Source: Candidatus Gracilibacteria bacterium CG17_big_fil_post_rev_8_21_14_2_50_48_13
GTDB taxonomy: Bacteria; Patescibacteriota; Gracilibacteria; 1-14-2-50-48-13
Direction: 5' to 3'
Length of the DNA stretch: 64,000 nucleotides
NCBI GenBank assembly: GCA_002783265.1
Contig: PFFG01000001.1
Span: forward strand, 62,001-126,000
This document shows positions 2,053 to 40,351 of this stretch, piece after piece. Each line of letters begins with the position of its first letter. Position 1 is the first letter of the stretch. The notes below the pieces were generated by a model. The model was not told the DNA's origin. It ran no database searches and saw only the letters and a list, made by a program, of their open reading frames with translations. The position numbers were made by a program, and so were the translations under genes.

Positions 2053-2056
2053 ACTT

Positions 2057-2809: not shown

Positions 2810-2841
2810 AACAACAAAAAGAGAGGCGCAAAAGGGCTTTG

Positions 2842-2870
2842 AGTCTAACGTAGGAGAAGCTTTCCGTCAA
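2842..2870 (-). promoter_or_regulatory. Promoter of the SLH-protein gene
   Basis: The minus strand reads TTGACG (2865-2870), 17 nt, TAGACT (2842-2847). The -10 box ends 32 nt from the ATG at 2809, in line with other genes here. Confidence 0.6.
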
Positions 2871-2936
2871 CGAGCGACAATTGATTCCTAGAGATTTGTG
2901 TGTAGAGTGAATGCACTATCTGATACTCTGCTGCTT

Positions 2937-3479: not shown

Positions 3480-3485
3480 TTTGAC

Positions 3486-5216
3486 ATGGTCTTTCGCCCT
3501 CGCCTACTCCTCATAGCGCTTGTTTCCTGGCTTACCCTTCTCGGTTCTGCTCAAGCAGCGCCCATGGATATAGAAGCCTTTCATACGAATGTGCACATTG
3601 CAACAGACACTTCCTTCACGGTCACAGAAGATATTGACGTTCTGTTTCATGAACCACGCCATGGTATTTTTCGAGACATTCCCATTGATTACACGGACCG
3701 TGTCGGCTCACCCTATAGAATGTATGTTTCACTTGAAAGTGTGACAGACGCAGAAGGAACACCCCTACCCTACGTGGAAGAACGCTCTGGGGTTTTTCTG
3801 CGCCTACGCATTGGAGACGGGGATACCTATGTTACTGGCCAGAAGTCTTACCGGATTCGGTATCATGTCGAGCGAGCATTTACCATGCAGACAACAAGTA
3901 ATGGTGCCTCCGTCGTCGAATTCCCGTGGAATGTCACCGGCGCGTGGCCAGCGACCATCAGCCAGGCAACGGCGACAATCCACCTCCCTGCCGCTGTTGC
4001 CAAAGATAGAGTCCAATCAACATGTTTTACTGGATACACTGGCGCAAAAGAGAAGAACTGCGTTATAACAGCCTCGGGTTCATCACTGCAATTTTCGACC
4101 ACAAAAAGTCTCTGGCCCAGTCAGGAGTTGACTTACGCAATACAAATTCCCGCGCAGTACCTAGACCTTCCTGGGTTTTCTCAACAGCTCTTGTGGTTTC
4201 TTCGTGATAATTACATGGTTTTATACGCCATGATTCTTGGCATCAGTATTTTCGTTATCTGGTGGATCTACGGTCGAGAGTTCCCTGCCTCAAGTGTCAT
4301 GCCCCAATGGGATCTTCCACAAGACATCCGTTTTTTTGACTCGGTCATGCTGATGCGTGAAACCGTTGGCGCAAGAAACATCCCTGCAGCCATTATTGAT
4401 CTTGCAACGAGGGGGTTTCTTACCATTGATATGGTGCGGCCAAAAAGCTTTATCTTCAGGAAGACAAGAAAAGATGAGGCACTACAACCCGCGGAAAAAC
4501 TTCTTCTGGATGGCCTGTTCGCAAAAAAAGATATGGTGACTTCCTCCGACCTGCGTAATTCTTTTTATGTGCATCTTTCCGCTATCAGCCAAGCCGCTGC
4601 AAAGCGAGTGGTTGATCAGAGGTGGTTCTATCGTGATCCTGCATCCATTACAGCGATTTCCGTTATTGCCGGGGTGTTTCTCTGTGGACTCGGGGTGATG
4701 ATCAGCCTCGGCACAGAACAAGGCTGGGGTCTTTTCAGCAACCTGTTCGTTTCCCTTCTCTGGTTTATCTTCAGTCTGCACATGCCAAAAAAAACACGGG
4801 CCGGACGACGACTTGAAGCGGACATTTACGGGCTCCGCGAGTATATTCTTCGTGCCGAGCAGCTGCGCCTTTCTGTAAAAAGCGCACCGAAACCTTCACG
4901 ACAAGAGTTCGATCGTCTTTTGCCCTATGCCATGCTCTTTGGCCTTGAAGCACGCTGGATTGAGCAGTTTTCCGATCTGCTGCAAGAACCTGCATCCTGG
5001 ATGGAAGGTTCCTACAGATCTTTTTCCAGTAGCTCCTTTATACAATCTCTTGCGACTTTTGAGTCTACCAGCGCGAGTACACTGAGTTCTGTCCCTGCCT
5101 CAAGCAGTAGCAGCAGTTCCAGTTCCTCGAGTTATTCCAGTAGTGGAGGCAGCAGTTTTTCCAGTGGTGGTTCATCGGGCGGGGGCTTTGGTGGAGGTGG
5201 CGGCGGAAGTTGGTAG
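3486..5216 (+). CDS. DUF2207 family membrane protein
   Basis: The 576-residue protein starts with a signal peptide (cleavage likely after AQA, near residue 25). An extracytoplasmic beta-rich DUF2207 domain follows, then a transmembrane helix at about 241-262, a cytoplasmic stretch, and two more helices at about 388-407 and 413-430. The tail is low complexity: serine-rich from about 511 and ending in a glycine run with GGSW, a hallmark of the family. It follows lemA by 6 nt, the common LemA-DUF2207 pairing. The biochemical role is unknown. The next gene overlaps in frame coordinates but its real start lies downstream. Confidence 0.9.
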   Translation: MVFRPRLLLIALVSWLTLLGSAQAAPMDIEAFHTNVHIATDTSFTVTEDIDVLFHEPRHGIFRDIPIDYTDRVGSPYRMYVSLESVTDAEGTPLPYVEERSGVFLRLRIGDGDTYVTGQKSYRIRYHVERAFTMQTTSNGASVVEFPWNVTGAWPATISQATATIHLPAAVAKDRVQSTCFTGYTGAKEKNCVITASGSSLQFSTTKSLWPSQELTYAIQIPAQYLDLPGFSQQLLWFLRDNYMVLYAMILGISIFVIWWIYGREFPASSVMPQWDLPQDIRFFDSVMLMRETVGARNIPAAIIDLATRGFLTIDMVRPKSFIFRKTRKDEALQPAEKLLLDGLFAKKDMVTSSDLRNSFYVHLSAISQAAAKRVVDQRWFYRDPASITAISVIAGVFLCGLGVMISLGTEQGWGLFSNLFVSLLWFIFSLHMPKKTRAGRRLEADIYGLREYILRAEQLRLSVKSAPKPSRQEFDRLLPYAMLFGLEARWIEQFSDLLQEPASWMEGSYRSFSSSSFIQSLATFESTSASTLSSVPASSSSSSSSSSSYSSSGGSSFSSGGSSGGGFGGGGGGSW

Positions 5217-14681: not shown

Positions 14682-16823
14682 TTACGGCGCACGTACAGTG
14701 ATCTCCTGTTTATAGGAAAGCATGGCACCATATTTGTCGTACACACGCAAATCCACCGTATAGTTTCCAGGGACCGAGTAGGTTTTTCTCACCTTTATAC
14801 CCGTATCACTAGTTCCATCCCCAAAAGACCAACGATAGCTCACAATATCACCGACGGATTCCGACGCATTCATTTCAACGGTGAGTGGCGCGACACCAAT
14901 GGTCGGCGTGGCAGTAAACTTTGGAGAAAGAAGCTCCTGCAACACGGTGATAATCTTTGTTGTAACCTTTGATTGTCCATCAGCAGTTCGCACTTTGAGC
15001 TGCGTCGTATAGATACCCGGCGCCGTAAATTCATAGGTCGTCTGAGCTCCTGTTAAACGAGGTCGTGAACCGTCCCCAAAATCCCATTCATAAGAGGTAA
15101 TTGCGCCGTTTTTGTATGAGGAACCAGAACCGTCGAAGGCCACCGTCAGTGGAGCCGTACCCGTGATAGGGTCTGCAAAAATATCTGCCACAAGATCCTC
15201 CGCTTCCACAACCACCGTTATAGTATCAGTCGCCGTCAGCTTTGCAGCGTTTTCCACTTGAAGGGTCACGAGGTACGAACCGGGACGTTTATAGACATAG
15301 CTCGTTTTCTCACCAGAGGTATCGAACTTCTGATCCCCATCAAAATCCCATTTCCAGTCCACAATGGAATTATTCGGATCCGTGGAAAAACTTCCATCAA
15401 ATTGCACTGTGAGCGGCAAGCGCCCACTGAGTGGTGCTCTAGCAGCAGCAACAATACGTTTTCCATCACCCCCCGTCCCTTCTGCCCGTATACGCGCCGT
15501 TGGCACAGCCTTCGACGTATTCACCGTAATGAGCACTTCTTTTTTCGCACTTACACCAAGATCTGTTTTCACTTCCAGAACAACCGTGTACTTCCCTGCC
15601 TTATCAAAGGTATACTCTGCGGTTTTTCCTGTGACGGGCGTTGCACCATCTTCGAAAGTCCAAGAGTACTCATTAATCTGTCCTTCCTTGGCCGTCGATT
15701 TTGAACCATCAAAGCTCACTTTCAGTGGAGCATCTCCCGTCAGGGTTGAGGCTTCAATTTCAGGTGAGGGCAGCGTCGTTTCATCAACGAGAACCCGAAT
15801 AGATTTTTTAGAAGACAGATTCTTTAGATCAACAACCTCAACGGTGACATTTTCCACGCCTGCTCGCGTGAACGTATGCTTCACTTTTGGCCCTTCTTCG
15901 TCCGTCACACCATCTCCGTCAAAATCCCACAAATACTGATCGATGGGATTTTCCGCGCGAGAACGACTTGCATCGAATTCTACTTCAAAGGGAGCAACAC
16001 CATTTAAGTCCTGCGGTGTCGTGAGGATATCAATAAACGGTTTCACCGTTGTGATGGTAAACCGCACCCCACCAGTTCCAGGGCCGTAAATTTCCGTTAC
16101 CCGCTCACCGACTGTTTGGTACTTATCATGAGGTGCAAGAATTTCTTTCGTCACACGCAAAGAAATATTGAACTGGCCGTTCTGAATACCGCGGTCAATA
16201 TAGGTTTTCGTGACGACAGGTGTTTTCTGTTCTTCCGCGAAGGTCCCCGCCCCTTCTAAATCCCATTCGTAGGATAGAATCCTGTAATTAGCCGTTTCAC
16301 GGGGCAAATAGCGATTTGCATCAAATTGTAACTCCGCAGGCGCCGCAATATTTGAGAGATCACGTACGTCCTGGTATACACCCTTACTATCCTTTTGACG
16401 AACAAGAATATACTGCCCATCGGTAGGTGTCAGCACACTGCTGTTTGGATCAAAACCCATACCCGTAGGGGCTGAAGGGCCAGTAAAAAGCGCTACGACA
16501 TTCCATGCGACAAACAGAAGAATGACGATCAAAATGCCAACACCAGCAAGAACTAGCATTTGCATGCGTTTATCAAGCCCCTTATAGGTATCCCGTACCA
16601 AGGTCGTCAGCTCCTGCACTTTAGAAGCTTTTGGCGCGAGAGGTTCCTGCGCGGGAACTTCCTGAGCAGCAGGTTGTTCCTGCATCTGGGCTGGCTCCTG
16701 CGCGACAGACGCCTGAGTACCAGACACGGACGTATCTTGTGGCTGCTCTGGCTGCATTGGCTGCTCTGGCTGCATTGGCTGCTCTGGTTGTTCTGGCTGG
16801 GGTGTAAGATTCAATGGATCCAT
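14682..16823 (-). CDS. Membrane-anchored protein with about six PKD domains
   Basis: The 713-residue protein has a cytoplasmic N-terminus rich in Pro, Glu and Gln (1-65, with repeated PEQPMQ), one transmembrane helix at about 88-113, and an extracellular part of roughly six PKD-type beta-sandwich domains. Their signatures recur: WDLEGAGTF, WDFDGDGVTDEEG, WTFEDGATP, WDFDGDQKFD, WDFGDGSRP and WSFGDGTSD, each followed by the xYTFxxxGxYTVxLxV strand pattern. PKD domains usually serve protein-protein or polysaccharide contact at the surface. It follows the 3,627-residue gene by 34 nt and closes that operon. No catalytic domain or sorting signal is seen. Confidence 0.9.
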   Translation of the reverse strand: MDPLNLTPQPEQPEQPMQPEQPMQPEQPQDTSVSGTQASVAQEPAQMQEQPAAQEVPAQEPLAPKASKVQELTTLVRDTYKGLDKRMQMLVLAGVGILIVILLFVAWNVVALFTGPSAPTGMGFDPNSSVLTPTDGQYILVRQKDSKGVYQDVRDLSNIAAPAELQFDANRYLPRETANYRILSYEWDLEGAGTFAEEQKTPVVTKTYIDRGIQNGQFNISLRVTKEILAPHDKYQTVGERVTEIYGPGTGGVRFTITTVKPFIDILTTPQDLNGVAPFEVEFDASRSRAENPIDQYLWDFDGDGVTDEEGPKVKHTFTRAGVENVTVEVVDLKNLSSKKSIRVLVDETTLPSPEIEASTLTGDAPLKVSFDGSKSTAKEGQINEYSWTFEDGATPVTGKTAEYTFDKAGKYTVVLEVKTDLGVSAKKEVLITVNTSKAVPTARIRAEGTGGDGKRIVAAARAPLSGRLPLTVQFDGSFSTDPNNSIVDWKWDFDGDQKFDTSGEKTSYVYKRPGSYLVTLQVENAAKLTATDTITVVVEAEDLVADIFADPITGTAPLTVAFDGSGSSYKNGAITSYEWDFGDGSRPRLTGAQTTYEFTAPGIYTTQLKVRTADGQSKVTTKIITVLQELLSPKFTATPTIGVAPLTVEMNASESVGDIVSYRWSFGDGTSDTGIKVRKTYSVPGNYTVDLRVYDKYGAMLSYKQEITVRAP
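16741..16800. repeat. 18-bp tandem repeat coding for the PEQPMQ tail
   Basis: An 18-bp unit (GGCTGCTCTGGCTGCATT on the plus strand) occurs twice and then partly, with a degenerate third copy. It encodes the repeated P/E/Q segment near the N-terminus of the PKD protein and could vary in copy number by slippage. Confidence 0.8.
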
Positions 16824-16857: not shown

Positions 16858-19800
16858 TTAAGAAAGAGGTTTCCCTTCTTCTGTTGATTGTACAGGAGCA
16901 GAAGCCTGCTGTACACCTTCCTCAGGAGGGGTTGGATTGACAGGCGCTGATGCTGTGTCTCCTTTCGCATCTCCAATTTGCAACCAGGACGGCGCTGCGG
17001 GTGCGGCAGGTGGTGCAGGTGGCGTCTCAATGATCTGTTCCGCCACTGGAGCTGGTACAGGTGCGGGATCAGGTACTTGCTCCGGAGCCTCGGCTTGACT
17101 ATCAGAGACCTGTTCTTCTGGTTCCAGGGGTTTCTCAGGCAACGGCTCATCAGGAATACGATGTTGATCCGGCGGAAGATCTCCTTCTTTTGAAAATCGT
17201 TTCATGAAGACAGCTAGCTGACCGCGGAGCAAAAGAATGTATTCCTCAAAGTCGACGTGGATTTCCGGATGCGTCTTTTTGTAATACAGGAACAACACAT
17301 ACAGTATGCCGCCGAGTGTCAGAACAAAGAGGAGCAATCCAACAAAAACATACGCAATACCCCAAAGAATAGTCCAGAACGGTGAGCCATCACCAGAAGG
17401 TTGAGTATTGACTTGCGCCACCGTAGGCATTGGATCAACAGTCGTCTGCGGTTCTTCCAATTCCACTGGCACGTCAGCAGTGCGTGGTCCCTGGCTTTGC
17501 ACATAGGTCAAAAAGTCTCGGGCAATCACCGTATAGAAGCCAAGATCTGATTTTTCCTGCTCAGAAAGTCCTGTAGCGCCAATATTCCCTTCCATCCGCG
17601 AAAGTACACCAATAGCACCAAGAGTATCGCCTTGTCCAAGCAGACGCCCGAGATCTTCTCGTGCAGCCAGGAGTCCATCAACGCCTGGTGCCGTAGAAGC
17701 TGCACCTAAAATTGCATCGAGACGTTCCAAGGAAACTTCTGGCGTAAGCCTCGTCACTGGCACAGGCTGCATGGTATCTCCAATGGTATCCAGAGCCCTG
17801 ACCATGGTTTCTTTTCGTGCATCGGACAGCGTACTACCACGCAAAACATTGGCAGCTAAGGACACCATGACGTTGCTCCTCTGCACTTCCGTTCCATAGT
17901 ATTTTTTGACCTGCATCAACGCTTCGCGCACTGTTCCCCGCAGTGAGGTTGGCAGCTCGGCGACACCAAGCATAATGGCACGCAATCGACTTTCCAGCTC
18001 TCCTATACTCAAATAGAAATTATCGAGCGTCAGCGTTGTTTCTGAAACCGCAAGCATTTCGTCGCCAATAACTGGTAACTGATACACATATGCAAGCAAC
18101 TTTTGTCGGTCTGCATACGACACCTCTGGTGATTCTAGCATGCGCGAGAGACCAGCCACAATAGACTGCCGTTCCGCGTGGGTCAGTTCCATCTTTGTTG
18201 TCAGCGTTTCGAGAGAGTCTTGCACAGACGCAAGTAAGGCACCCGTCGCTACCTCTGGGCGCTTTGCAACAGAGGTTTGCATGAACGCAAACAGTTGAGA
18301 TTTCTCGACTGGCAGCATGGACCCACCTTGATTTTTTTCTTCCGCACAGATTCGACGGACAATATCTTTTGTGTCTTTGACATACACCGGCGTGCACAGT
18401 GCAAAGGCGCGAGCAAAAGAATAGAATGGAAAGACATGCTGGGTTTCAAAAAGCATTTCCATTTTGTACTGCAGTGGCAGTGTTGGGTGTGCGAGAATAG
18501 TCTTCTTCAAATCATGCACCAGGTGTGCGGCGGATCGCATATCAAGATTCGCTGTGACAATAGCGGCCGTATCCGCATCAACGCGCGTGCGAAGATCCAC
18601 CAGTAAATCTTGCCCGACAGCCTGGCTTTTTTCTGCATTTTTTGTCACCAGTGCTTGAAGATATTGTTCAAGAGCAAAGGCGAACTGACGCTTTTCAGGT
18701 TCTGTTGCCGCCGCCTGTGTTTGTACAAACTCCATCAGGGTCAGGTAGCGATCTGACTCATTCGTCCCCTCTGCTGTACTATACTGAGCAAGCATAGGGG
18801 TAAATGTGGAAGACGCTGCGGCTGCTCCTTGCGTAAATGAAGAACGAAGCGACGAAACTTCTTCTTGGGAAAGCAGGGTCATTAACTTCGCAACAAGGTC
18901 AGCAAGATCCTTTTGTCTCGTTTCGTCAAAATCAAAAAGCGCAAATCCAGGCAGTATGGCTGCTCGGTCATTTTGGGCAATGATATTTTCTGTGGCTTGC
19001 TGGAGTTGTCCATTAAAATCAGTTACGGTCTGCAATAATTCAGGAAACTTCTCCGAAGACCCAATGGTAAGATCATTATTCATAGCACCCCAAACAGGCT
19101 CTTCAAGCGACAGCATGGATGCAAGATTCGTCGCCGATATTGCCTTATCAAGAAGAGCAAGCACCATCGCCTTCTGGGCAGAAGCGACATCACTATTCTC
19201 AAGAATGCCCCTGATGTTCTGCAGGTACGTTCTTCTTGCCGTCACAAGCTGCATAAGAATGTCTTCTTTTTGCGCTGCATTATATCGTTGATCGCTGGTG
19301 AGCCGATCAAGCATTGCGAGCATGCCGCGACGTTGACGTTCCCAAAGACTTGTCCGAAGAATTAGGTCCTTCGCAGCACGCAGAATCGCCGATCGATTTT
19401 GTGCAACATCGGAAATCCCTGTAGCCAGTTGCACTGCACTTGCACTACCAAGTGCTTTAATAAACTGCTGCATTTCCAGATCTAACGGGGACTCCATGGA
19501 TGTCGCAGCCAGTGTGCGCAATATGGTCACCTTCTGTCCAACAGAGGCAATTGTATACTTTTTCTCCTTCAGAAGACCTTTTAGGGCCGAAACTTCTGCG
19601 GCTACAGCGTTACTTGCTTTTGCTGCTTCCTCTAGGGCTGGCGACGCAAGCAACTTCTCAATATGCTCGTCCATGGTTGAGATGACCATATCTTTGACAA
19701 TAGGATCAATGGTCTGAGACTTCAGTACATCGGAAATCGCAAGAGAGTACCGTACCACAAGAACCGTTGAAGGATCTGTTGCTTCTTGGAGACGTCGGAA

Positions 19801-22800
19801 GGCCTCAGCGAAACTTCCACGATCTGTCTGCATGCCTGATCCTGCCGCGTCGAGAATGGTGTGTAGCGCATTGCGTAAATCATCTGCACCACGCTTAGCA
19901 AGCGTCTTACCTAAGGTCGCATCGATATCAAACACCCGAACCATAGCAAGTCGTGCGAGGAGATCATTGATCTGTGCCTCCGAAACAGCAAGGCGTCCCG
20001 TGCGTTCCCGAAGTCTCTGCATGGCTTCAAGACGATCTTCCAAGGAAAGCGCGCGATCAAAGGCAGCCATGAGTGTCGAAATTTCTTCTGGCACCTGCTC
20101 ACCCAGGTTGCGCAGCAAGGTCGTTCGATACAGATCGAGACTCGACTCGTAGGCACTTGCCGTTGTACAAATTAGGGATTGCTCACCCGATACCGTCAAA
20201 ACGATAGAATAGGAGGAACAGTCGAGAAGGGTTGTATCTCCCACGACACCGTACACATTGAGAGGCTCCGCTTTGGCGTCAGGCGCTGCACTGCGAAGCA
20301 AGGCTCCACTTGCAGAAAGTAAGCCCGTCAATTGCTCAGCCGTATCGTTTGGTATAAGGGTAAATTGCTGTATTCCATCTGCACTCTGTAGCGCAAAAGC
20401 TTCCCGGGCAGTGTTCCATATTGGATTCTGCACATAGGCCTGAATGCCGGCAGGAAGGAAAAGAAATGGTGCCACCTGTGTGAAACCAAGTTGTTCTCCT
20501 TCTGCATAAGCGTTCAATGAACCATTCGTCACAGGAACCGTCCCTGGAATATATCCCGTTGCATCCTGGACACCTGACTTCGTACGAACATCAAAGGCAA
20601 TTACTTGTTCATCTTGTGTTGCAACAGGTGCTTTCGTAAACAAGGGAAGCATGGAGACAGCTCCGAGGGATGACGAGAGCCCAGAGCGTAAGTCGGAAAC
20701 ACTTGTTCCTGCCGTCAAAAGGCTCTGAAGAGCTCCTGCTTGATCAGGCACGAGACGCATCACATCTTCCACAAGTTGCTGAGGAGCAATTCCCTGTTCT
20801 AGGGCAACATCAACGTACGTTGGAATATCCACAAGCAATTGTGGTGGGAGTGTCATTCCGCTGCCAGAAATCGATGCAAGTGTTGCGGAGATTTCTGCAT
20901 TAACCCCATAGGATTGTAAAAGACTCTTTTTCTGATCCCCAGTTAATTGTACGGGGCGTGCGAGAGAGAACGGTACAACTTGGAGGAAACTATCTTTGGC
21001 AATAGCCGTCGTCAATCCTTCAATGCCCGCTTCCGCCTGCAACATTGGCTGATCCGTTGCGATTTTTTGGGCGATGATATCCGAAGAAATTTGTTGTTGT
21101 TCTAAATTTTTGATTGTCAACAACGTCGGCATATCCGCTGGCAATAGAGGGTTCGTGACCACCGTCGCCAACTGGGGATTTGCTTTGAGTGCATCAAATA
21201 GTGCATTGGCAGGAACTCGATCTGCCCGCAACTGTGTATACACACTTTGGAATACGGGGTCCTGGGCTGCTAGAAAATTGTAAATCATCGACGAAGAGAG
21301 TCCTCGACGTTCGTACATTCGGTATGCAGAGACAAAAGGCACAGCAAACTTTTTCAGTGGTTCAGGCCGAACTTCGGAAAGGACATTGGAAACTGCCTGA
21401 ACACGCGCATCAATAGAGGCATCTTTTTGTTCCTGGAGTATACGTGCAACATCTGGGTAGGTACCAGCGAGAGCCCACAGGGCAATATCTGAGGAAACAC
21501 CCCATCCACGAAGCCATGCGATGTATTCACTCACCTGCATGCTTTTCTCCGAAAGACCAAAATGTGCTCGGAAGGTAGAACGTGCCTTCTCGTCCGTGAG
21601 ATAGATGAGCGGAATGCGCGTCCCTCGAGGATAGAGAGAACGGACTGCATCATAGAGTTCTGCCTCCTTGTCGCCGACCTTGTTCAGCAATTCATCAATC
21701 TCTGGAAAATATGGAGCATAAAGAGCGAAGGCTTCACGAGTTGAAAGTCCGCTTGCGAGAAGACTGCGAAGCATGGGTTCCGGCTCAGCAACAACAGGTC
21801 GAAATGCGGGAATGTATACGAAGCGATCGCCAACGGCACCCAAGATCTGTGCAGCAGAATAGAGGCGCGCTGAAGCCTGAGCAAAGTATGCACCAAAGGC
21901 AGCATCAAAACGTGCAAAATGGCCAATAATTGCATCCTCAGAGGAGTACAAGACACTCAGTTCTCGCGTGGCCGAACGCAGTGGAATAGACGCACCCATG
22001 TACGGGAAAAGCCGGAGCGTGCGCTGTCCATTTGCCGCCGTTAGATTGGTGAGAATTTCCCCGTCAGACTGTTTCTGTGCTTTGAGTGCACTGACCAGTC
22101 GACCCATTTCCGCATCCTGCGATGCGAGAAATGCTAGGGCAAAGGGGGCAGAGACTGTTCTGTTCATTGCACGAGCATACTGCGTGAGAGTCGTATCCCA
22201 TCCCGTGAATTGTGCAATTAGAAAGGAATTTGTTGGATAGTCACGAAGGAGATCTGCAAAACTTGGTACAGACTTCCCTTCTCCTTGTTTTTGGTACCAA
22301 GATGAGAGCATAGGATTATCTGCAACGACCTTTTGCATTGCCAGTTCTTCTGGAATACCCTGCGTCATAAAAAAGTGCGCAAGATTCGCTGCGGGCAATT
22401 CTATGGGCCGCATATAGGAGAATCGCACTTTCCTTTCGGCACCATTTTTTATCAATGACGTAAAAATCTCGACTCCCTGTGATTTTTCGCGCTTCAGCGT
22501 CTCATAATCTTGTCCAAAATTTGGGTTGTCTTTCGCAAGTCGCATAAAGGCTTCCTCGGGCGTTAACCCCATGGATATATACTCACCATAGGCAAGCCGA
22601 AGCGGTAAAACAAACATGGACTCAGGCTTATACGTCATAGCTTTGAGTGTCGCCTCCTGCGAAAATTCCTGGTAGTAAAGACTTCGATCAGAAGTTTTCT
22701 TTCTTAGAGCATCGTAAACGGCGCGAAAAGTTTCGTCATCAGAGCGCAATTTCTCGTAAATTGTTTCCTCCGACAAACCATGATGACGTAGTGTTTCATA

Positions 22801-25800
22801 AATGGCATCAAAGTTTGAGACAATTGCAGAAGACACACGAAGGGCGACTTCCCTTCCCGGTTCAGAAAGAAGACGACGCAGAATATCCTGAGCGCTTGTT
22901 CCCTTTGATTTGAGATCCAGAACAATTGCAGCGATATCCGGATCATCTGCGCGCAATTTGTCGACGATTAAGGCATCTGTATAGGCGCGTTCTTTGAGCA
23001 ACAGGTAGGCTCGGCCAATGGATACTCGCAAAGGGGAAAGTGGTTGAAATTCAATACCACCTGCCGTTGTTTCGTGTTTTTCAATGGCATCCAAAAGAGC
23101 AGCGTTGGAAGAAGCCTCGAGCAGTTCAGACCGATACCCTTCTAAAGTTGGGTTATCCACAAGAATTTTGTCGACAATCTCTTTTCTCGATAATCCCTGC
23201 GTCACCAGATGGGCCAAAACATCGTTTGCTGGAACCTCCGCTGCTGCATGCAGGTTTGTGGAGACTTGCAAGTTCGCCTCGTTGCGTAGGGTTTGCACAA
23301 TCGCATCATCGCTTTGCCCCCTTTGTCGCAATTCCGCTATTTTCTTTCCAAGGGCCGCATCATCGGAAGACACTTTCTTAAGAGCCGATGCAGGTCGCAG
23401 CCCAAACTCTGCATACACATCGTATGCAGTCCCAAAGGGCATCTGGTACGGTTTTGTCGGGTCATATTGAATGGCACTGCCCGCGAGATTTTTCGCAAGA
23501 AGGCTTTGAATTTCCGCTTCATTTCTCCCCTCAGATCGTAGTGCACGAACTTGAGCGTCAACACCAGGATTTTGGGCAGCAAGCTGATCGTTGATCACAT
23601 TCGCCGGCAAGTTGTAGGACGTGAGCATGTCACTAACTGAAGTATAACTTGCTGTCAGTTGCGTTCCGCTACTCGCGGCATAGGAACCATTGGTCGTCGC
23701 TTGTTTTGCGACACTTGGACTGAGTCCCTGCATATAGGTTGCACGGACAACGGGTGAAAGTGTCGTTCCAGTGGCTGTAGGAAAAAAAGGAGACACATTG
23801 TTCTCCTTTGGTGGCTCGTACACTGCAATAACGTCACTCGCAGCCCCCCGTAGTCCAGAAAGGGAGGCAAAAACCGGCTTTTCGGCGGGAGATAAGCCAA
23901 CGTCAGAATCGTAGACACGGAGAGCGACGGTTTGCTGCGAGGTTTGTCCTCCCGAAGAAATCAAAGCGGTTATGCGGTATAAACCACAGAGGGGAAAGCT
24001 TACAGAACTACTGAGCCCCGTAGAAGCAATGGGCAGCGGAACGGGATCCGCAATACTACTACACCCTTCCAAGGTTCCATAGCGCTGCATACTCCAAACG
24101 ACGCTGGGAGAGGAGACATTTGCTCCATCGCTCATTTTTGCACCAAGCACCATGCGGAAGGGTGAACTACCCTTTACCCAAGGCACATAGCCAAGACCAG
24201 ACAGGGAGCCAGGCTCTACAAGAGTTGATTGCAGAGCAGGATTTACTCCGGTGGTAATAGTTCTCGGATCTGAGTATACCTTCACGGACTCCTTTGTATT
24301 CATATCGTAGATTTGTGCACCAATTCGGTAGGTATTCACCGAACCAGCGGCACCATAGTTTTCAAGTCGAATAAGACGCTCGGTATCATAAGACACTTCA
24401 TTGAAAAGTTGATTTCCCTGCACTTCATAAAACCACAAGACTTGAATATTCTGATTTGGTTCGTCTGGATCGCGCAAACCACGAAGCTTGGCACGCACAC
24501 TCATAGGTGTTGTGAGGGCACCATTTGGCCACTCAACGACAAAGGAATCGTAGGTGGGGAGCGAGTTTTGTACCTTAAAATACTTCACCATCTGAGACGT
24601 TTTGGCCTGACCATTTACATTTTCGAGAATAGTGAAGGTAACAGGAACACAATTTGCTGAATCCTGGCTACTTTCAACGAAGCGATCACGCACAGAAACA
24701 GATTTTGCAGACAATTCACGCGTCGCGATATTCCATCGAAACCCGGTTGTTGTTGAATCGCGATTAACTGGTAAGTCGGAACTTGCGAGCGATGTACTAC
24801 CATCGAAGAGGTACTCGCGATTTTTCGTCACAATATACCCCTCTTTAGCCGCACCTGAAACAATACACGCGCCAGGAGTTGCGGGAATCACCGCACCTCC
24901 TTCACTCACTGAAAAATCCGCAAGGGGTTCAAGGGGCCTTCGAATAAGAATATTGCGCGTTACCACCAGAGCTTTTTCCGTTGGTTTGGTGACGGAATAC
25001 ATTGTATAGGTAAGCGAGTATTGCCCTTCCTCAGCAATCTGGAGGCTGCCACTAAATGTCGTTCGTCCATCTTCCCCGAGAGAGCCAGAACTGATGGTCG
25101 TCAGGGCTGGTGTCGCACCGTACCCAACTTCCACCTTCCCGATGTTTTTCCCAATCACACGTGTTTTCACTGCCTGACCCTTTGGATACCGCGGGGTTTG
25201 ATTTTGTGGGAAAATGTTGTCCTGACTATCCAGAAGCTGGATGTCATATGTAATGTCTGTGCTGACCGTAATATCCGACGATTTTGTGCTCGTCTCACCA
25301 TATTTATTACGTCCCGTGACAGTCACGCGATAGGTACCCGGTTTACCGAAGGTCAATTCCTTTACACGTTTTGTACCTACGGTTTTCCATTCACTTTGTG
25401 CAAAGCTTGCATCATAGGGACTTGCATCAACAAACACAGTTCCTTCTTCAAGGTATCGAGAAGCGTCTGTGAGTTCAAAAATAGTAGGATTCCCTGGTTT
25501 TTCACTGAGTGTGAAGTCAACCTGCGGTGCTTGCGGAAGCACGACCAGAGATTTGGACATGACACTTTCATCATTTACTCCAGCAAATTTGTTATACACC
25601 GTGAAGGTATATTCACCATCTTGATCGAAGACATAGTCAAAATCATCTAATCCCTTTGATAGTGTTCTATTCAAGACTGTCTGGCCTCCAGAACCTGTAC
25701 TGGAATTTCTCTTAATTTCTACCCGCTTGCTCTCAAGACTAGTAGATTCCGTAAAGGCCGGGAAGGTACGAATTTTATAGGAGTTGCCCACCGTGCCCAC

Positions 25801-27741
25801 ATAGTTGGGATTCACAGTAATATCCGTACCATCGTCGAAGACACGCACCGTGAAGTCCATCACCGCTAGAGTTTGGCCGAGCGTATAATCACGAATAGCA
25901 ATAGTAACTGGGTAGGATCCCGTTTTATCAAACGTCAGCTCAGGTGTAACACGGAAAGGTGTAACACCGTTGAGTGCATTCCCTGAACGTGTAATCTCCC
26001 CATCCACAAAGCGGACAAAGCCGTCTTTGAGTCCGGGCGACACCACATCAATGAGCGTCGGTGTTTGCTTTCCATAAAATTGAATATCACTTTTGAGCGT
26101 CACCGGCTTATCCACGGCTTTTGTCAGTGCAACCGAGTCCTTTGGCATTAAACGAACATTTTTTGTGCCCGATAAGCTTGCATAGGTTCCATTCACCACG
26201 AGCTGTCCCAAACCATTTTGAGCAACGAGACGTGGATCAGAATTATTTCCCAGAACAATGGTATTCGTTCCAATATTGACGCGTCGGCCATCTTTCAAGA
26301 TCGCCGTTATGTCATCGACGAGATACACACTATCCCCCAAGGGAATCGTTACCTTAAAGGTTTCGCCATTCTTAGCAGCATCTTTAATCAAAGTTCCGTC
26401 TCCGCGAGTAATTGTATGTTCTAGGGTTTGAAAACTTTCTGGAAGTGTATTTTGGTCAGAAAGCGTTACTTCGGCTTCTATATCCTTATCTCCTAGACCA
26501 TTGTTGAGTTGAATGGATGCACCTGTCGTGTATGTTCTCGCTTCAAGAGAGTTTCCTGAGTTTTTCACTTTGAAATAACTACGGCGACGATCATAGCCAA
26601 CGGTTTTGCCGTTCTCAATATCTGTCCAGGTAGCTGAGCTCGCAGGATTGAGGCTATTGTAATCAGCAAATGCTTCCCCCGCACCAAACACATATCGGTC
26701 TTCTTCCCCAGGTTTTAAAACCACAACCGTAAGTGATGCCGTTGTTTGTCCTGGTATCTGTACTTGTACGACGTTGGGAGATTCAACCCCTTCATTAATT
26801 CGGTCGATGATTGGTTTGAGATCCACAAAACGTCCGCTTGCACCGGTTGCACTATTACCGTTAGAAACGGAAACATTTCGCGCATCGGAGGGAGCGGCAT
26901 ACACATAGGTGGATTTCACCCAAGCTTTTGCGCCCGATATCGTATCATTTCCCGGTATGAACAAGCCAAAAGATCCACTTTTCACCTGATCCCATTCCGC
27001 TTTCGTTACACGCAGGAGACTGCCACGCAAGGCGGGTAAGCGAGCTGACCCCGCAACAAATTCATAATCCACTGAGCGATAGTCTGCAGAAATAGCCTTC
27101 GATGAATCAGCAGACTGTGCATAGGTGAGTGTCAGTTTTTTGTAGAGATCCGTCGGAATTTTTGCGAAAGCCATCTGTTGACTGGAGACACTGTACCCCA
27201 CTGATCCAGGAAAATTCCACTGAATGTTCGTCTGATCAATGCCTACTTGTCTTTGTAAATCCCCTACACCCGTCACGACGTTATTTCGGGTATTAATATC
27301 CCTCGCTCCCAGTATGGCAAGTATCTGATTGACAATGGCATAAGAGAGTAAAATGACACCAAAACCAATAGCAATGTTAATGATGGTCTTTTTCACATTC
27401 TCCTGCTGTTTCTCATCACCACGCGACATAATAAGCAGTACCCCCTCAAAGATAAGAAGTGCAACTGCTGCAAATCCCAAGAGCAGAAAGACGGAGTTAA
27501 TAATGTTCGTGATGATCACAACTAAATTCGTATCTCCTGTGCCTGTTGGCCCATAAATACCCAGTTTCTGCGTATCAACTCCACTCTGCGTGGTATCTGA
27601 GACAGCATTAAGACCCGTCGCATTTTCAAAGTTCTGTGCTTCAGCAATCGCCATAGGCGTGAGCAGGCTGCCCAGCAAGACAAAAAGGAGAAGGAGTCGG
27701 GCAATCAATGTTTTCATAGTAGTATACATAGGTCGAAACAT
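16858..27741 (-). CDS. Giant 3,627-residue surface protein with N-terminal pilin-like domain
   Basis: The N-terminus has a hydrophobic signal/anchor segment (11-33) and two helices (about 73-105 and 118-144) that match the small pilin encoded just upstream, including the shared LSYAIVNQI. Residues ~150-1340 are beta-rich, PKD/Ig-like in pattern (for example GKPGTYRVTVTGRNKYGE). Residues ~1365-2365 form a run of about twelve helical repeats that I recognise as no known family. A long helical region follows to ~3450. A transmembrane segment at about 3452-3484 leads into a Pro/Glu-rich cytoplasmic tail. Both ends are thus membrane-tethered. It starts 24 nt after the pilin gene; an alternative ATG is at 27717. 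It is probably a cell-surface structural or adhesion protein; function is inferred. Confidence 0.9.
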   Translation of the reverse strand: MFRPMYTTMKTLIARLLLLFVLLGSLLTPMAIAEAQNFENATGLNAVSDTTQSGVDTQKLGIYGPTGTGDTNLVVIITNIINSVFLLLGFAAVALLIFEGVLLIMSRGDEKQQENVKKTIINIAIGFGVILLSYAIVNQILAILGARDINTRNNVVTGVGDLQRQVGIDQTNIQWNFPGSVGYSVSSQQMAFAKIPTDLYKKLTLTYAQSADSSKAISADYRSVDYEFVAGSARLPALRGSLLRVTKAEWDQVKSGSFGLFIPGNDTISGAKAWVKSTYVYAAPSDARNVSVSNGNSATGASGRFVDLKPIIDRINEGVESPNVVQVQIPGQTTASLTVVVLKPGEEDRYVFGAGEAFADYNSLNPASSATWTDIENGKTVGYDRRRSYFKVKNSGNSLEARTYTTGASIQLNNGLGDKDIEAEVTLSDQNTLPESFQTLEHTITRGDGTLIKDAAKNGETFKVTIPLGDSVYLVDDITAILKDGRRVNIGTNTIVLGNNSDPRLVAQNGLGQLVVNGTYASLSGTKNVRLMPKDSVALTKAVDKPVTLKSDIQFYGKQTPTLIDVVSPGLKDGFVRFVDGEITRSGNALNGVTPFRVTPELTFDKTGSYPVTIAIRDYTLGQTLAVMDFTVRVFDDGTDITVNPNYVGTVGNSYKIRTFPAFTESTSLESKRVEIKRNSSTGSGGQTVLNRTLSKGLDDFDYVFDQDGEYTFTVYNKFAGVNDESVMSKSLVVLPQAPQVDFTLSEKPGNPTIFELTDASRYLEEGTVFVDASPYDASFAQSEWKTVGTKRVKELTFGKPGTYRVTVTGRNKYGETSTKSSDITVSTDITYDIQLLDSQDNIFPQNQTPRYPKGQAVKTRVIGKNIGKVEVGYGATPALTTISSGSLGEDGRTTFSGSLQIAEEGQYSLTYTMYSVTKPTEKALVVTRNILIRRPLEPLADFSVSEGGAVIPATPGACIVSGAAKEGYIVTKNREYLFDGSTSLASSDLPVNRDSTTTGFRWNIATRELSAKSVSVRDRFVESSQDSANCVPVTFTILENVNGQAKTSQMVKYFKVQNSLPTYDSFVVEWPNGALTTPMSVRAKLRGLRDPDEPNQNIQVLWFYEVQGNQLFNEVSYDTERLIRLENYGAAGSVNTYRIGAQIYDMNTKESVKVYSDPRTITTGVNPALQSTLVEPGSLSGLGYVPWVKGSSPFRMVLGAKMSDGANVSSPSVVWSMQRYGTLEGCSSIADPVPLPIASTGLSSSVSFPLCGLYRITALISSGGQTSQQTVALRVYDSDVGLSPAEKPVFASLSGLRGAASDVIAVYEPPKENNVSPFFPTATGTTLSPVVRATYMQGLSPSVAKQATTNGSYAASSGTQLTASYTSVSDMLTSYNLPANVINDQLAAQNPGVDAQVRALRSEGRNEAEIQSLLAKNLAGSAIQYDPTKPYQMPFGTAYDVYAEFGLRPASALKKVSSDDAALGKKIAELRQRGQSDDAIVQTLRNEANLQVSTNLHAAAEVPANDVLAHLVTQGLSRKEIVDKILVDNPTLEGYRSELLEASSNAALLDAIEKHETTAGGIEFQPLSPLRVSIGRAYLLLKERAYTDALIVDKLRADDPDIAAIVLDLKSKGTSAQDILRRLLSEPGREVALRVSSAIVSNFDAIYETLRHHGLSEETIYEKLRSDDETFRAVYDALRKKTSDRSLYYQEFSQEATLKAMTYKPESMFVLPLRLAYGEYISMGLTPEEAFMRLAKDNPNFGQDYETLKREKSQGVEIFTSLIKNGAERKVRFSYMRPIELPAANLAHFFMTQGIPEELAMQKVVADNPMLSSWYQKQGEGKSVPSFADLLRDYPTNSFLIAQFTGWDTTLTQYARAMNRTVSAPFALAFLASQDAEMGRLVSALKAQKQSDGEILTNLTAANGQRTLRLFPYMGASIPLRSATRELSVLYSSEDAIIGHFARFDAAFGAYFAQASARLYSAAQILGAVGDRFVYIPAFRPVVAEPEPMLRSLLASGLSTREAFALYAPYFPEIDELLNKVGDKEAELYDAVRSLYPRGTRIPLIYLTDEKARSTFRAHFGLSEKSMQVSEYIAWLRGWGVSSDIALWALAGTYPDVARILQEQKDASIDARVQAVSNVLSEVRPEPLKKFAVPFVSAYRMYERRGLSSSMIYNFLAAQDPVFQSVYTQLRADRVPANALFDALKANPQLATVVTNPLLPADMPTLLTIKNLEQQQISSDIIAQKIATDQPMLQAEAGIEGLTTAIAKDSFLQVVPFSLARPVQLTGDQKKSLLQSYGVNAEISATLASISGSGMTLPPQLLVDIPTYVDVALEQGIAPQQLVEDVMRLVPDQAGALQSLLTAGTSVSDLRSGLSSSLGAVSMLPLFTKAPVATQDEQVIAFDVRTKSGVQDATGYIPGTVPVTNGSLNAYAEGEQLGFTQVAPFLFLPAGIQAYVQNPIWNTAREAFALQSADGIQQFTLIPNDTAEQLTGLLSASGALLRSAAPDAKAEPLNVYGVVGDTTLLDCSSYSIVLTVSGEQSLICTTASAYESSLDLYRTTLLRNLGEQVPEEISTLMAAFDRALSLEDRLEAMQRLRERTGRLAVSEAQINDLLARLAMVRVFDIDATLGKTLAKRGADDLRNALHTILDAAGSGMQTDRGSFAEAFRRLQEATDPSTVLVVRYSLAISDVLKSQTIDPIVKDMVISTMDEHIEKLLASPALEEAAKASNAVAAEVSALKGLLKEKKYTIASVGQKVTILRTLAATSMESPLDLEMQQFIKALGSASAVQLATGISDVAQNRSAILRAAKDLILRTSLWERQRRGMLAMLDRLTSDQRYNAAQKEDILMQLVTARRTYLQNIRGILENSDVASAQKAMVLALLDKAISATNLASMLSLEEPVWGAMNNDLTIGSSEKFPELLQTVTDFNGQLQQATENIIAQNDRAAILPGFALFDFDETRQKDLADLVAKLMTLLSQEEVSSLRSSFTQGAAAASSTFTPMLAQYSTAEGTNESDRYLTLMEFVQTQAAATEPEKRQFAFALEQYLQALVTKNAEKSQAVGQDLLVDLRTRVDADTAAIVTANLDMRSAAHLVHDLKKTILAHPTLPLQYKMEMLFETQHVFPFYSFARAFALCTPVYVKDTKDIVRRICAEEKNQGGSMLPVEKSQLFAFMQTSVAKRPEVATGALLASVQDSLETLTTKMELTHAERQSIVAGLSRMLESPEVSYADRQKLLAYVYQLPVIGDEMLAVSETTLTLDNFYLSIGELESRLRAIMLGVAELPTSLRGTVREALMQVKKYYGTEVQRSNVMVSLAANVLRGSTLSDARKETMVRALDTIGDTMQPVPVTRLTPEVSLERLDAILGAASTAPGVDGLLAAREDLGRLLGQGDTLGAIGVLSRMEGNIGATGLSEQEKSDLGFYTVIARDFLTYVQSQGPRTADVPVELEEPQTTVDPMPTVAQVNTQPSGDGSPFWTILWGIAYVFVGLLLFVLTLGGILYVLFLYYKKTHPEIHVDFEEYILLLRGQLAVFMKRFSKEGDLPPDQHRIPDEPLPEKPLEPEEQVSDSQAEAPEQVPDPAPVPAPVAEQIIETPPAPPAAPAAPSWLQIGDAKGDTASAPVNPTPPEEGVQQASAPVQSTEEGKPLS
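20646..23650 (-). repeat. About twelve degenerate alpha-helical repeats in the 3,627-residue protein
   Basis: Units of roughly 65-90 residues recur, each with a Y/F..G(L/I)S.E.I pattern, then D(D/N)P.f..x.y..L, then G.S...I...L. Examples are QGLSRKEIVDKILVDNP, HGLSEETIYEKLRSDDE, MGLTPEEAFMRLAKDNP and RGLSSSMIYNFLAAQDP. The DNA has diverged, so this is an old protein-level repeat and not a recent tandem duplication. Confidence 0.75.
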
Positions 27742-27765
27742 GAGATTTGGAGAGAGTTGGTGATT

Positions 27766-28275
27766 TTATTGTGTGGGTGGAGTTGTTGTTGGTGTATTCG
27801 TCGTGGTCGTCACTGGCGTTGTCACATTTCCAGCTGGGCTAATGAGGTTCACTATCTGATTGACAATGGCATAGGAAAGAAAAATGATCAGCGTGCCAAT
27901 TGCGAGGTTAATGAGCGCCTGAACAAGTTTTTTCCGCTCATCTTCAGAACCACCAGCAAGAATAAGACGAACGCCAAAGTAAATGAGAAGTCCCACCGCA
28001 ACAACCATGTAGTATTGCAAGAAGTAACTAGTCCAATTCACCACTAGTGTCCGTAAGTTATCTTCCTGAATAATGCCAGACTTCCCTTCATCCACTTTGT
28101 TTTGAAGGGTCTGTAACCCGACATCCAAACCCGAACCTGGATTAGTTTGTGAGGTACTGACGCCATAAGGAAATGTCTGCTGATCTGATCCCAATTGCGC
28201 ATTAGCAATACCAAGCCCAAGGCTGATGGTAAGCACGATTCCTGCGCAAACGGCTCGTACGAATCTGTTCCTCAT
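27766..28275 (-). CDS. Small pilin-like protein (type IV secretion pilin family of CPR bacteria)
   Basis: The 169-residue protein has a signal peptide (about 1-26, cleavage near ANA-Q), a short extracellular part, two transmembrane helices (about 87-107 and 120-146) linked by the charged loop GGSEDERKK, and a Thr/Pro tail. This layout, with FLSYAIVNQI in the second helix, is that of the VirB2/TrbC-like pilin family common in Patescibacteria. It heads the operon of the giant and PKD proteins. A TATACT box lies 26 nt before the ATG. No secretion ATPase or other VirB gene is in the window, so whether it polymerises is unknown. Confidence 0.82.
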   Translation of the reverse strand: MRNRFVRAVCAGIVLTISLGLGIANAQLGSDQQTFPYGVSTSQTNPGSGLDVGLQTLQNKVDEGKSGIIQEDNLRTLVVNWTSYFLQYYMVVAVGLLIYFGVRLILAGGSEDERKKLVQALINLAIGTLIIFLSYAIVNQIVNLISPAGNVTTPVTTTTNTPTTTPPTQ

Positions 28276-28351: not shown

Positions 28352-29953
28352 CTAAAAAGTATCGTCTAATTTACTATACGATCGGCCAGAAGGTGCATTC
28401 GTATAGGAAACCTCTTCCATAACCTCTCCAGCGGCATTCAAAACCCGGAGACTATCCGACGTATTCCCCAAAGAAATCCTTGTCTCTGTATCTTTCAGGA
28501 TGACGTATGCAAAGGGGGCGAGCGTCACACCCGAGAGATCATAGGGTGCAGAACCACCTACTGCGTCATCAAGAAACACGCCACAAAGAGAGACCTCTTC
28601 ATTGCTTGTATTGTGCAATTCTATCCACTCCTCACCCGTGTCGCTTCCCTCAGGGTTTGGTAAAAACTCGGATAGTCGCACACTGCCATTGCTCCAAACG
28701 GTTTCGGTACATGGTTCTTCACGTTCTGATAATCCTGCACTTGATGTCGTTGGTGCAGTAAGAAAATTTTCGGGCTGCACTTGTGCTGGCGACATATGAC
28801 TCCAACTTAAGAGTGATGCACCGATTCCATACAGCTCCCGCACGAGGAGAGTATTGGTCATAAACGCCGAAGATGAAAAACAAGGGCCAGACCATAGTGA
28901 AGCAAGTGCTTGCATATCAGATACTTCTGCTACTGGGATTGGGTCTTTTGACCAACAAATGGCATCTTGCACTACACCATCCTCATTTTCCAGAAAGACC
29001 TGCTCCGTTGTTGCTACCAGCCCTTTTTGCTCTGTCCACAAGAGCTCTGTCATAGCATCATTGTGAGGTCTATGTGCGCCATTATTCATAGAAACATGGA
29101 GAACATCTCCCGTGTGCACCAAAACATCCGAGAGGTCCATGCGCTGGTTATCGACACGAAGAAACAGATTCCTTAGTGTACTTCCCTCTCCCCCATTACC
29201 ATCGTCTCGAATATACAATCCAACATCGTCTGCAATGCCTGGTGAATTCATCATACTCACAAAGGCTAGGGATACTTGAGGGAGCGGTGGTTCCATAGAT
29301 GGAGATTCCTGTGGGGGAAGCACTACCCCTGTCATTACCGTACCCGACTCCGTTAAGACCATGCCACTCGAGACTTCGAGAGGCATGTACCCCTCTTGGG
29401 GGGCACTGTACTGAAAACATACGACTTCCTGCAAAAGGCAGGTTCGTTGCAAACTTTTCCCCTCTTCTGCCGAAGGAGAGACATCTCCATACCAGAATCC
29501 TGCTTCTGTTGCTGTTGCCAAGAACATTGCTGATGAATCGCCCCATGGAATGTAATCCTCAAGATATGGAGCGCTTGTACCTCCAGGACGATACAAGGCA
29601 ACGGCACCACGAATGTTACCCATATTTGCACTACCGAAGGAAGCCCCCGTATACACGTTTTCGGGTGTGCCTACCCCATCTGCCCGAAGATGCACCTCAA
29701 GTACAGCACCTGGTTCGATAAAGGTTCCCATGGGGAAAGACCACACCGGAAGAGTGTCTGGATCAATTTGCCACCCAGAGATATCCACTCTTTGTGCACT
29801 TCCATTCCATAGAGTTATCACTTCCCTCCCCGTATCAGCCCCCACGGGGTCCGTCAGAATTTGAGAAAGGAAAATTCGCGGTTCATCGACACTTTGTACA
29901 GGTGTCAGCGAGCAAGAAAGTAGGACAAAAAGTAATGAAAGAATACGACGCAT
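28352..29953 (-). CDS. Secreted protein with two lamin-tail (LTD) domains
   Basis: The protein is 533 residues from the ATG at 29953. It starts MRRILSLLFVLLSC, a signal peptide with a weak lipobox (LLSC), so it may be a lipoprotein. An LTD-like beta-sandwich occupies the N-terminal part (IFLSQILTDPVGADTGREVI, then LWNGSAQRVDISGWQID), and a clearer one the C-terminus (VRLSEFLPNPEGSDTGEEWI, then LHNTSNEEVSLCGVFLDD). Between lie beta-rich segments without a clear family. LTD domains in bacteria occur on secreted and wall-bound proteins. The TTG start at 29968 is rejected because the promoter at 29980-30007 fits the downstream ATG. It has its own promoter, ahead of the pilin operon. Confidence 0.82.
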   Translation of the reverse strand: MRRILSLLFVLLSCSLTPVQSVDEPRIFLSQILTDPVGADTGREVITLWNGSAQRVDISGWQIDPDTLPVWSFPMGTFIEPGAVLEVHLRADGVGTPENVYTGASFGSANMGNIRGAVALYRPGGTSAPYLEDYIPWGDSSAMFLATATEAGFWYGDVSPSAEEGKSLQRTCLLQEVVCFQYSAPQEGYMPLEVSSGMVLTESGTVMTGVVLPPQESPSMEPPLPQVSLAFVSMMNSPGIADDVGLYIRDDGNGGEGSTLRNLFLRVDNQRMDLSDVLVHTGDVLHVSMNNGAHRPHNDAMTELLWTEQKGLVATTEQVFLENEDGVVQDAICWSKDPIPVAEVSDMQALASLWSGPCFSSSAFMTNTLLVRELYGIGASLLSWSHMSPAQVQPENFLTAPTTSSAGLSEREEPCTETVWSNGSVRLSEFLPNPEGSDTGEEWIELHNTSNEEVSLCGVFLDDAVGGSAPYDLSGVTLAPFAYVILKDTETRISLGNTSDSLRVLNAAGEVMEEVSYTNAPSGRSYSKLDDTF

Positions 29954-29979
29954 AAGCCAGGATGACAAAATAGCCTAGG

Positions 29980-38660: not shown

Positions 38661-40316
38661 CTACATCATGCCGCCCATACCTCCCATGCCACCCATACCG
38701 CCCATGCCTCCATGACCACCATGATCATGTTCAGCAGCCTTTGGAATCTCCGTTATGGCCGCTTCAGTTGTTAGGAACATCGCAGCGACGGAGGCCGCAT
38801 TCTGCAATGCACTTCGTGTCACCTTGGTCGGATCCACAATTCCCTTCTTCACCATGTCACACATTTCGTCATCAAAAGCGTCGTACCCCATATTGATGTC
38901 CTCCGCACTCATGACACGTTCAACAATGACACTTGCCTCTTTCCCTGAGTTGGTGGCAATTTGGCGCGCAGGATACTCCAAAGCACGGCGTACGATATCG
39001 ATACCAATTTGCTCATCGTGACTGGTTCCCTTCAGCGCGGCAAGAGCACGTGATGCTTTAAGCAGTGCCGTACCACCACCTGCGACAATACCCTCTTCGA
39101 CCGCTGCACGGGTAGCAGAAAGCGCATCTTCGATGCGATGCTTTTTCTCTTTGAGTTCCACCTCCGTTGCAGCGCCAACCTCAATCACCGCAACTCCTCC
39201 TGCAAGTTTTGCGAGACGCTCCTGCAGTTTCTCACGGTCGTAGTCTGAGCTTGTGTGCTCAATCTGTGCCTTTATCATACTGACGCGCGATTCAACTGCT
39301 TCCTTGGAGCCCTTTCCTTCGACAATCGTCGTACTTTCCTTGTCGGCAATGATACGTCGAGCAAGACCCAAATGAGACAGTTCTGCCGTATCCAATTTGA
39401 GACCGATTTCATCGGAAATGACTGTTGCACCCGTGATGGCTGCAATGTCTTTGAGCATCTCCTTTCGTCGTTCACCAAACCCTGGAGCCTTAATGGCAAG
39501 AGTATTAAAGGTACCACGAATCTTATTGAGAATCAGGGTCGTGAGTGCCTCACCATCCACATCTTCTGCAATAATGACCAGATTTTTCTGACCACTTTGT
39601 GCAACTTTTTCGAGCAAAGGAAGGAAATCCTGTACAGACGAAATTTTCTTGTCCGTAATAAGAACACGAACATCGTCGTAGGAAGCTTCCATACGGGTTA
39701 CATCCGTCACCATGTATGGAGAGATGTACCCATTATCAAACTGCATTCCTTCCACAACGCGCTTGTTGAGGCCAAAGGTCTGTCCTTCCTCCACAGTAAT
39801 AACGCCGTCTTTACCGACCATATCCATCACTTCAGCAATGAGGGTTCCCACCTCCGTGCTTTGTGCAGAAACCGTCGCAACTTGCGCTATTTCCTCCTTC
39901 GTCGAGATGTGCTTTGCATTCCCCACCAACTGGTCCACAACTGTTGCGACGGCCTTCTCAATGCCCGTTTTGAGCACCATAGGGTTTGCTCCTGCCGCCA
40001 CAACGCGTAGACCTTCCTTGATCATCGCATGGGCGAGCACAGTTGCCGTTGTTGTTCCATCACCCGCCACATCGTTGGTCTTTGTTGCGACCTCCTTCAC
40101 GAGTTGTGCCCCCATATTTTCAAGCGTGTCCTCAAGCTCAATTTCCTTTGCAATGGTAACGCCATCGTTCGTGATGGTCGGGCCTCCGTAGGACTTTTCA
40201 ATCACAACATTGCGTCCCTTTGGTCCCATGGTTACGCGAACCGCATTCGCGAGAATTTCGACACCCGCAAGCATCTGCTGCTTCGCATCATCGTGAAATG
40301 TTACTTTTTTTGCCAT
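38661..40316 (-). CDS. groEL: Chaperonin GroEL (Hsp60)
   Basis: The 551-residue ATP-dependent chaperonin folds proteins in the double-ring cavity capped by GroES. Typical segments are [20 protein letters not shown] near the N-terminus, the nucleotide-binding [11 protein letters not shown], and the Gly-Gly-Met tail that ends in repeated GGM. Length matches the family. It follows groES by 35 nt and ends at TAG before a terminator. Regulation should be by HrcA through the CIRCE element upstream of groES. Confidence 0.98.
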
Positions 40317-40351
40317 AGATTGGAAAAAATTATGAATAAATCAAAGTGCCT

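Follow-up and report, generated by a model that had tools for sequence, protein, structure and literature searches.

A two-helix unit of the T4SS-pilin type recurs within a gene cassette of the Gracilibacteria, a class of very small, probably host-dependent bacteria. The free pilin, a giant surface protein and, in relatives, probably a third protein carry the unit, and they are encoded together, usually after two "tri-pilin" genes. On balance, we favor the view that this pilin-type hairpin acts in the membrane as an assembly module for a heteromeric adhesin platform that spans the wall, and is not a pilus subunit. Assembly in the membrane of pilin-type units that carry giant ectodomains is well supported because the gene order recurs across the class. 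Co-assembly is less certain in the genome analyzed here than in its relatives, because its tri-pilin genes lie on a contig other than that of the giant and its third protein is without the full hairpin. The "window" below is the whole stretch of 64,000 nucleotides that was analyzed, and the features discussed are collected in Table 1.

Table 1. Features of the pilin-giant-PKD cassette in the window
Feature	Coordinates	Strand	Residues	Basis or remark
Third gene: Pro/Gln-rich cytosolic N-terminus, one TM, six PKD domains	14682..16823	(-)		
Giant membrane-anchored surface protein	16858..27741	(-)	3,627 aa	
C-terminal TM of giant	17293..17349	(-)	3465-3483	followed by basic stretch and Pro-rich tail
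At least 10 degenerate repeats of ~70 aa in giant	21034..23643	(-)	1367-2236	predicted alpha-helical from composition
Ectodomain core of giant	24109..25035	(-)	about 903-1211	common to giants of other Gracilibacteria
Single PKD-like domain of giant	25282..25362	(-)	about 794-820	PF00801, 24.4 bits (cut-off 23.5)
21-nt stretch in giant, identical to 27853-27873	27322..27342	(-)		
Fused pilin two-helix unit of giant	27328..27534	(-)	70-138	PF18895, AlphaFold2
Signal-peptide-like N-terminus of giant	27634..27741	(-)	1-36	hydropathy; AlphaFold2 helix 5-41
Free T4SS_pilin-family protein	27766..28275	(-)	169 aa	PF18895, BLASTP
21-nt stretch in free pilin, identical to 27322-27342	27853..27873	(-)		codes for YAIVNQI
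Pilin two-helix unit of free pilin	27859..28062	(-)	72-139	PF18895

Pilin-type units of the free pilin, the giant and the third protein

A first-pass annotation of this DNA had stated that the two-helix unit of the small pilin reappears at the N-terminus of the giant, and this has held up. Both proteins score above the Pfam cut-off of 26.6 bits for PF18895 (T4SS_pilin), the free pilin at 30.1 and the giant at 38.0 bits, and BLASTP aligns them with 34% identity over 116 residues (E 2e-14), so that chance similarity is ruled out and the homology, on sequence comparison, stands well above chance. Also correct was the statement that the two share the peptide LSYAIVNQI and an identical 21-nt stretch of DNA, although the latter is only mildly unusual. 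It is the longest exact run between the free pilin gene and the whole giant gene, and a run of 21 nt or more has P = 0.004 when both proteins are held fixed and codons are drawn from local usage. Across the unit, 29 of 77 residues and 55% of nucleotides are identical, with identical codons at 16 of the 29 shared residues versus 10.7 expected. SYAIVN is present in most giant units of alignment A1, LSYAIVN being a motif of the family, and the 21-nt identity is thus a mild excess within a conserved motif, by which recent duplication is not shown. Because the overall DNA identity is only 55% and the exact match sits in this motif, the two units appear to be old, diverged paralogues. Recent duplication or gene conversion was rejected as the main origin of the fused unit on the same 55% identity, together with a better fit of the window units to their own positional class (60.7 versus 51.6 and 60.1 versus 55.6 bits on their own and the other's HMM), the margins of 9 and 4.5 bits being small and both units scoring highest, at 73.7 and 63.9 bits, on a mixed model of "other free pilins".

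The free pilin consists of a signal peptide, a short exported segment, the two-helix hairpin and a Thr/Pro-rich tail. PF18895 describes a signal peptide and two TM helices with both termini outside, and this is the topology predicted here from hydropathy, loop charge and AlphaFold2. For the N-terminus of the giant AlphaFold2 places helices at residues 5-41, 72-105 and 110-166, the latter two, which form the hairpin, with pLDDT of about 80-92; the predicted structure of a tri-pilin is too poor to use (pLDDT 60). A Foldseek search with the hairpin returned no significant fold match, a bare hairpin carrying little fold signal, and a sequence search of the PDB gave no match. Eight columns are invariant among pilin units, and these include N, S and G residues in or next to the TMs.

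Beyond its signal peptide and pilin unit, the giant extends as a long ectodomain that ends in a C-terminal TM and a cytosolic, Pro-rich tail of 144 residues. With the signal peptide, a basic loop inside, the ectodomain outside and a basic flank after the C-terminal TM, the predicted topology would make the giant membrane-bound and not extruded. The ectodomain core matches giants of three other Gracilibacteria (G034, G024 and G040) at E values of 1e-12 to 1e-14. An alpha-rich stretch from about residue 1350 to 3450 includes the ~70-residue repeats, for which no match was found in any other locus examined. The window giant is the longest among the complete giants examined. The description of the protein as a "giant PKD" fits its relatives, which usually carry 8-10 PKD domains, but hardly the window giant, with its one weak PKD match and a repeat region of its own. 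A similar C-terminal TM is present in about half of the relatives' giants; in about half, a plain hydropathy criterion finds none, and two-ended tethering is therefore not a general feature.

In the third protein six stretches exceed the Pfam cut-off for PKD, versus the single one of the giant. It is the orthologue of a membrane protein found class-wide with three TMs and six PKD domains, matching that model with 131 bits over positions 88-228 only. The N-terminal part that holds the first TM of the hairpin is absent, leaving one TM in place of the usual three, the window protein having lost the pilin-like hairpin that its orthologues in the class normally carry. These orthologues have a Pro-rich cytosolic N-terminus ahead of the three TMs, and 48 of 52 complete copies have exactly six PKD domains by a purpose-built PKD model. 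Their hairpin aligns with the pilin unit in hhalign at 82% probability and an E of 1e-5, versus E values of 0.3 and 0.04 for two unrelated membrane proteins used as controls, and it is probably homologous to that unit. Outside the class, the hairpin part of the third-gene model matches free ORFs of about 104-168 residues.

A conserved cassette in the Gracilibacteria

In the window the order of genes, read on the minus strand from 28275 to 14682, is pilin, pilin-fused giant and PKDx6 gene, with gaps of 24 and 34 nt. The same order, one or more pilin genes followed by a pilin-fused PKD giant and a PKDx6 membrane protein, recurs in relatives, which belong to other orders of the class and whose loci are named Gracilibacteria, Peregrinibacteria, Peribacteria and Abawacabacteria. 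The third gene is present in 259 of 288 class genomes at E<=1e-5, the weaker of these matches possibly resting on PKD only. By hand count, a fused giant lies within two genes upstream and on the same strand in about 40 of 55 distinct third-gene loci from about 20 families, including one locus (L072) in which ORF overlap hides the giant; in at least 71 of the 288 genomes, a giant-type pilin unit was found within an ORF no shorter than 600 residues. These counts are approximate, as the loci were read with a simple greedy ORF caller, custom HMMs built for the pilin unit, the PKD domain and the third gene, and hydropathy-based TM calls, and MAG contig ends intervene. Pfam itself finds T4SS_pilin and PKD in one ORF at L041, L047 and L042, the pilin match of the last (23.5 bits) being below the cut-off. 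Third genes were also seen in three TGA-recoded Gracilibacteria (L155, L164 and L165, of f14 and f22) when TGA is read as glycine, and in at least one of these loci (L165) a pilin-PKD giant is read in the same way.

Upstream, two tri-pilin genes with three pilin units each are found in families f3, f16, f18, f20, f21, f23 and f25-f29, while f5, f6, f9 and the window have a single pilin, sometimes with a long exported N-terminal part. Giants without the two-helix unit, or genes that are not neighbors, are confined to a minority: in f13 a PKD protein that has a signal peptide but is without the hairpin adjoins free pilins, f7 combines free pilins with the third gene but has no PKD giant, and in f2, f4, f17 and one f15 genome the cassette locus holds only the third gene. 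At L069 the pilin and PKD parts occupy two neighboring ORFs. Fusion of pilin and giant is thus usual, not obligatory. Partners that are fused in most families, and separate but adjacent in others (f13, f7), give the "Rosetta-stone" pattern expected of physical partners.

The units themselves are specialized. Cross-validated HMMs assign 42 of 43 giant units and all 15 giant-adjacent free pilins to their own position, and do so for 53-55 of 57 first, second and third tri-pilin units; the other free pilins form a mixed group. Homology to the pilin unit is clear for the last tri-pilin unit (hhalign 99%). The units are therefore position-specific, and each position is an old part that has been conserved separately rather than an all-purpose anchor. 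This weighs on the proposal that the two-helix unit is just a convenient signal-anchor hairpin and that adjacency reflects ordinary operon shuffling without joint assembly. Any TM hairpin could hold an ectodomain, and PF18895 units are abundant in the window genome, which has 16 matches at E<=1. Their invariant polar and glycine positions, their position-specific classes, an order kept across about 20 families and the tri-pilin genes that usually accompany the cassette all speak for more than anchoring, and we consider this proposal unlikely.

Membrane assembly versus pilus or channel

The window genome comprises 1.28 Mb in 11 contigs. Its PF18895 matches, nine of them over the cut-off, are spread over contigs C1, C2, C6 and C7, and its sole strong VirB4-like ATPase is at C5:149-150 kb, on a contig other than the giant's, and no ORF resembling a pilin lies within about 8-10 kb of it. 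The genome also encodes three strong type IV pilus-type ATPases. A VirB2 would be expected beside virB4 or other T4SS genes, a position that none of the window pilins occupies, and would be a small protein that can be extruded and polymerized; the giant, at 3,627 residues and with a C-terminal TM, is not such a protein, and the free pilin agrees in size only. The two tri-pilin genes lie at C1:38673-39653 and 39698-40549 (122 and 134 bits), on another contig than the giant. About 3.4 kb upstream of them is a TrwB/TraG-like ATPase of 804 residues (L038:10049-12463), a possible T4SS link of the tri-pilins. A Lamin-tail-domain (LTD) protein at 28352-29968 of the window is directly upstream of the free pilin, and an LTD paralogue (L038:2723-4558) adjoins the two tri-pilin genes on C1, giving an LTD neighbor at both pilin loci. 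At the right of the window, an open frame of 7,758 codons (40723-63999, minus strand) runs off the end; it has hardly any Pfam match, and no TM is predicted in it. A sigma-70 and terminator scan around the pilin promoter gave results no better than shuffled sequence.

The first-pass annotation had suggested that the giant ectodomain is built into, or caps, a pilus or pilin assembly in the membrane. The conserved gene order favors its second part, a pilin-type assembly in the membrane; the pilus is disfavored by the C-terminal TM with its 144-residue tail and by the distance to VirB4, and a giant "built into a pilus" seems doubtful. In its full form, the pilus model has the free pilins polymerize into a real VirB2-like filament that the giant enters by its pilin unit, to act as an adhesin at the tip or base. 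Homology to PF18895, the VirB4-like ATPase of the window genome and the many giants with no evident C-terminal TM agree with such a model, as does the multi-pilin array that is essential in a saccharibacterium, for which a pilus has been proposed (PMC10633639 and PMC12102498). However, the window giant is held by a C-terminal TM and cytosolic tail, VirB4 is beside no pilin gene in this genome, VirB6 is scarce or absent in Gracilibacteria according to the 2025 survey (PMC12102498), and the third protein, with its N-terminus inside and an extra TM, is unsuited to extrusion. A pilus of this kind is therefore improbable in our estimation.

More improbable still is a T4SS-derived secretion or uptake channel in which the cassette would supply the membrane and outer part, the tri-pilins a divergent VirB6-like core and the PKD arms mating-pair-type adhesins: it would suit the reported scarcity or absence of VirB6 homologues in Gracilibacteria (PMC12102498), the TrwB/TraG-like ATPase near the tri-pilin genes and the presence of a VirB4-like ATPase, but no T4SS ATPase adjoins the cassette in the loci inspected, and the tri-pilins match pilins, not VirB6, in sequence.

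In the adhesin platform that we favor, pilin-type hairpins would pack against one another in the cytoplasmic membrane and bring a number of very long ectodomains together in a single complex spanning the cell wall. The arms of this complex would be PKD or Ig-like in relatives, and in the window giant beta-rich with a helical repeat region. The complex would be held in the membrane by tethers at both ends of the giant and by the Pro-rich tails that the giant and the third protein have in the cytosol; tethers and tails could also link it to cytosolic partners. Its likely task would be attachment to a host or partner cell, as the domain types, on which the adhesive role is solely based, suggest. 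A more specific and tentative model, possible rather than likely, has the six units of the two tri-pilin proteins, which would be a fused form of the multi-pilin array, and single units of the giant, third protein or free pilin close into a membrane hetero-ring of fixed composition, the non-extruded base of the wall-spanning adhesin arms, serving host attachment throughout the phylum.

Relation to other Patescibacteria and to known T4SS adhesins

A cultured saccharibacterium requires the pilins within its T4SS cluster for epibiotic growth, according to a study in Cell (2023; PMC10633639), and a review in FEMS notes six pilins in the essential array (PMC12857230). In Patescibacteria, VirB2-like pilins occur widely in arrays of 2-11, as reported in a survey in Microb Genom (2025; PMC12102498). 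The Gracilibacteria unit resembles these VirB2-like pilins (PF18895; PF04956, TrbC/VirB2) in its two helices, its signal peptide and a GDE/K-rich motif of the cytosolic loop, and resembles the multi-pilin arrays of the same two papers in being present as multiple copies of diverged paralogues. Unlike the units of these arrays, it is fused to ectodomains of 600-3,600 residues and occurs in triple-unit proteins, and is not beside virB4; pilin-giant fusions are not mentioned for the arrays in the available portions of PMC12102498 and PMC10633639. An ordinary array of five pilin ORFs in tandem, with no giants, was observed in an Uhrbacteria locus (L067).

Giant membrane proteins, PKD proteins among them, are known in Vampirococcus lugosii (PMC8080830). 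Like the present giants, they are predicted membrane proteins of great length that carry PKD and other adhesion-type domains, but a T4SS pilin unit or conserved cassette is not mentioned in the available portions of that paper. For other Patescibacteria, an expression study lists T4SS pilins and PKD proteins, as separate genes, among those that are highly expressed and have no known function (PMC10936435). The PrgB-type adhesins of Gram-positive conjugation systems (PMC12857230) are likewise surface adhesins linked with a T4SS-related apparatus, but PrgB is anchored to the wall by LPxTG, whereas the Gracilibacteria giant is anchored by a pilin-type hairpin and, in many cases, a C-terminal TM. 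No PrgB-type adhesin or PrgB homologue was found in Patescibacteria in the 2025 survey (PMC12102498).

A closer likeness is seen in loci of other Patescibacteria (L193-L204), in which two tandem genes combine a signal peptide, a pilin hairpin and a giant ectodomain. The ectodomains there are of the Big_5, TIG, fn3, LamG and VWA types and not PKD, the genomic neighbors differ, and no third PKDx6 gene was found at these loci. The first protein of each Ig-like pair has about 650-1,040 residues and the second 1,900-4,700, the longest reaching 4,732. Several of these loci adjoin genes for a histidyl-tRNA-synthetase-like protein and a signal peptidase (identified by Pfam in L194 only). Among the Patescibacteria sampled, the PKD version with a third gene was seen only in Gracilibacteria; the pairing of pilin hairpin and giant looks phylum-wide, because other Patescibacteria have the same N-terminal layout on Ig-like ectodomains. 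No description of the fusion or the cassette was found in the open-licence full-text PMC literature, and its novelty is provisional.

The recurrence of pilin and pilin-fused giant, with a third surface gene after them, in about 40 related gene clusters suggests that a fold from secretion-system pilins was put to new use, keeping long adhesin-like arms in the membrane. The cassette connects host attachment of Patescibacteria with the role of their pilin arrays without a conjugation machine, and it predicts that "T4SS pilins" in Patescibacteria serve, at least partly, as membrane assembly modules for adhesin platforms.
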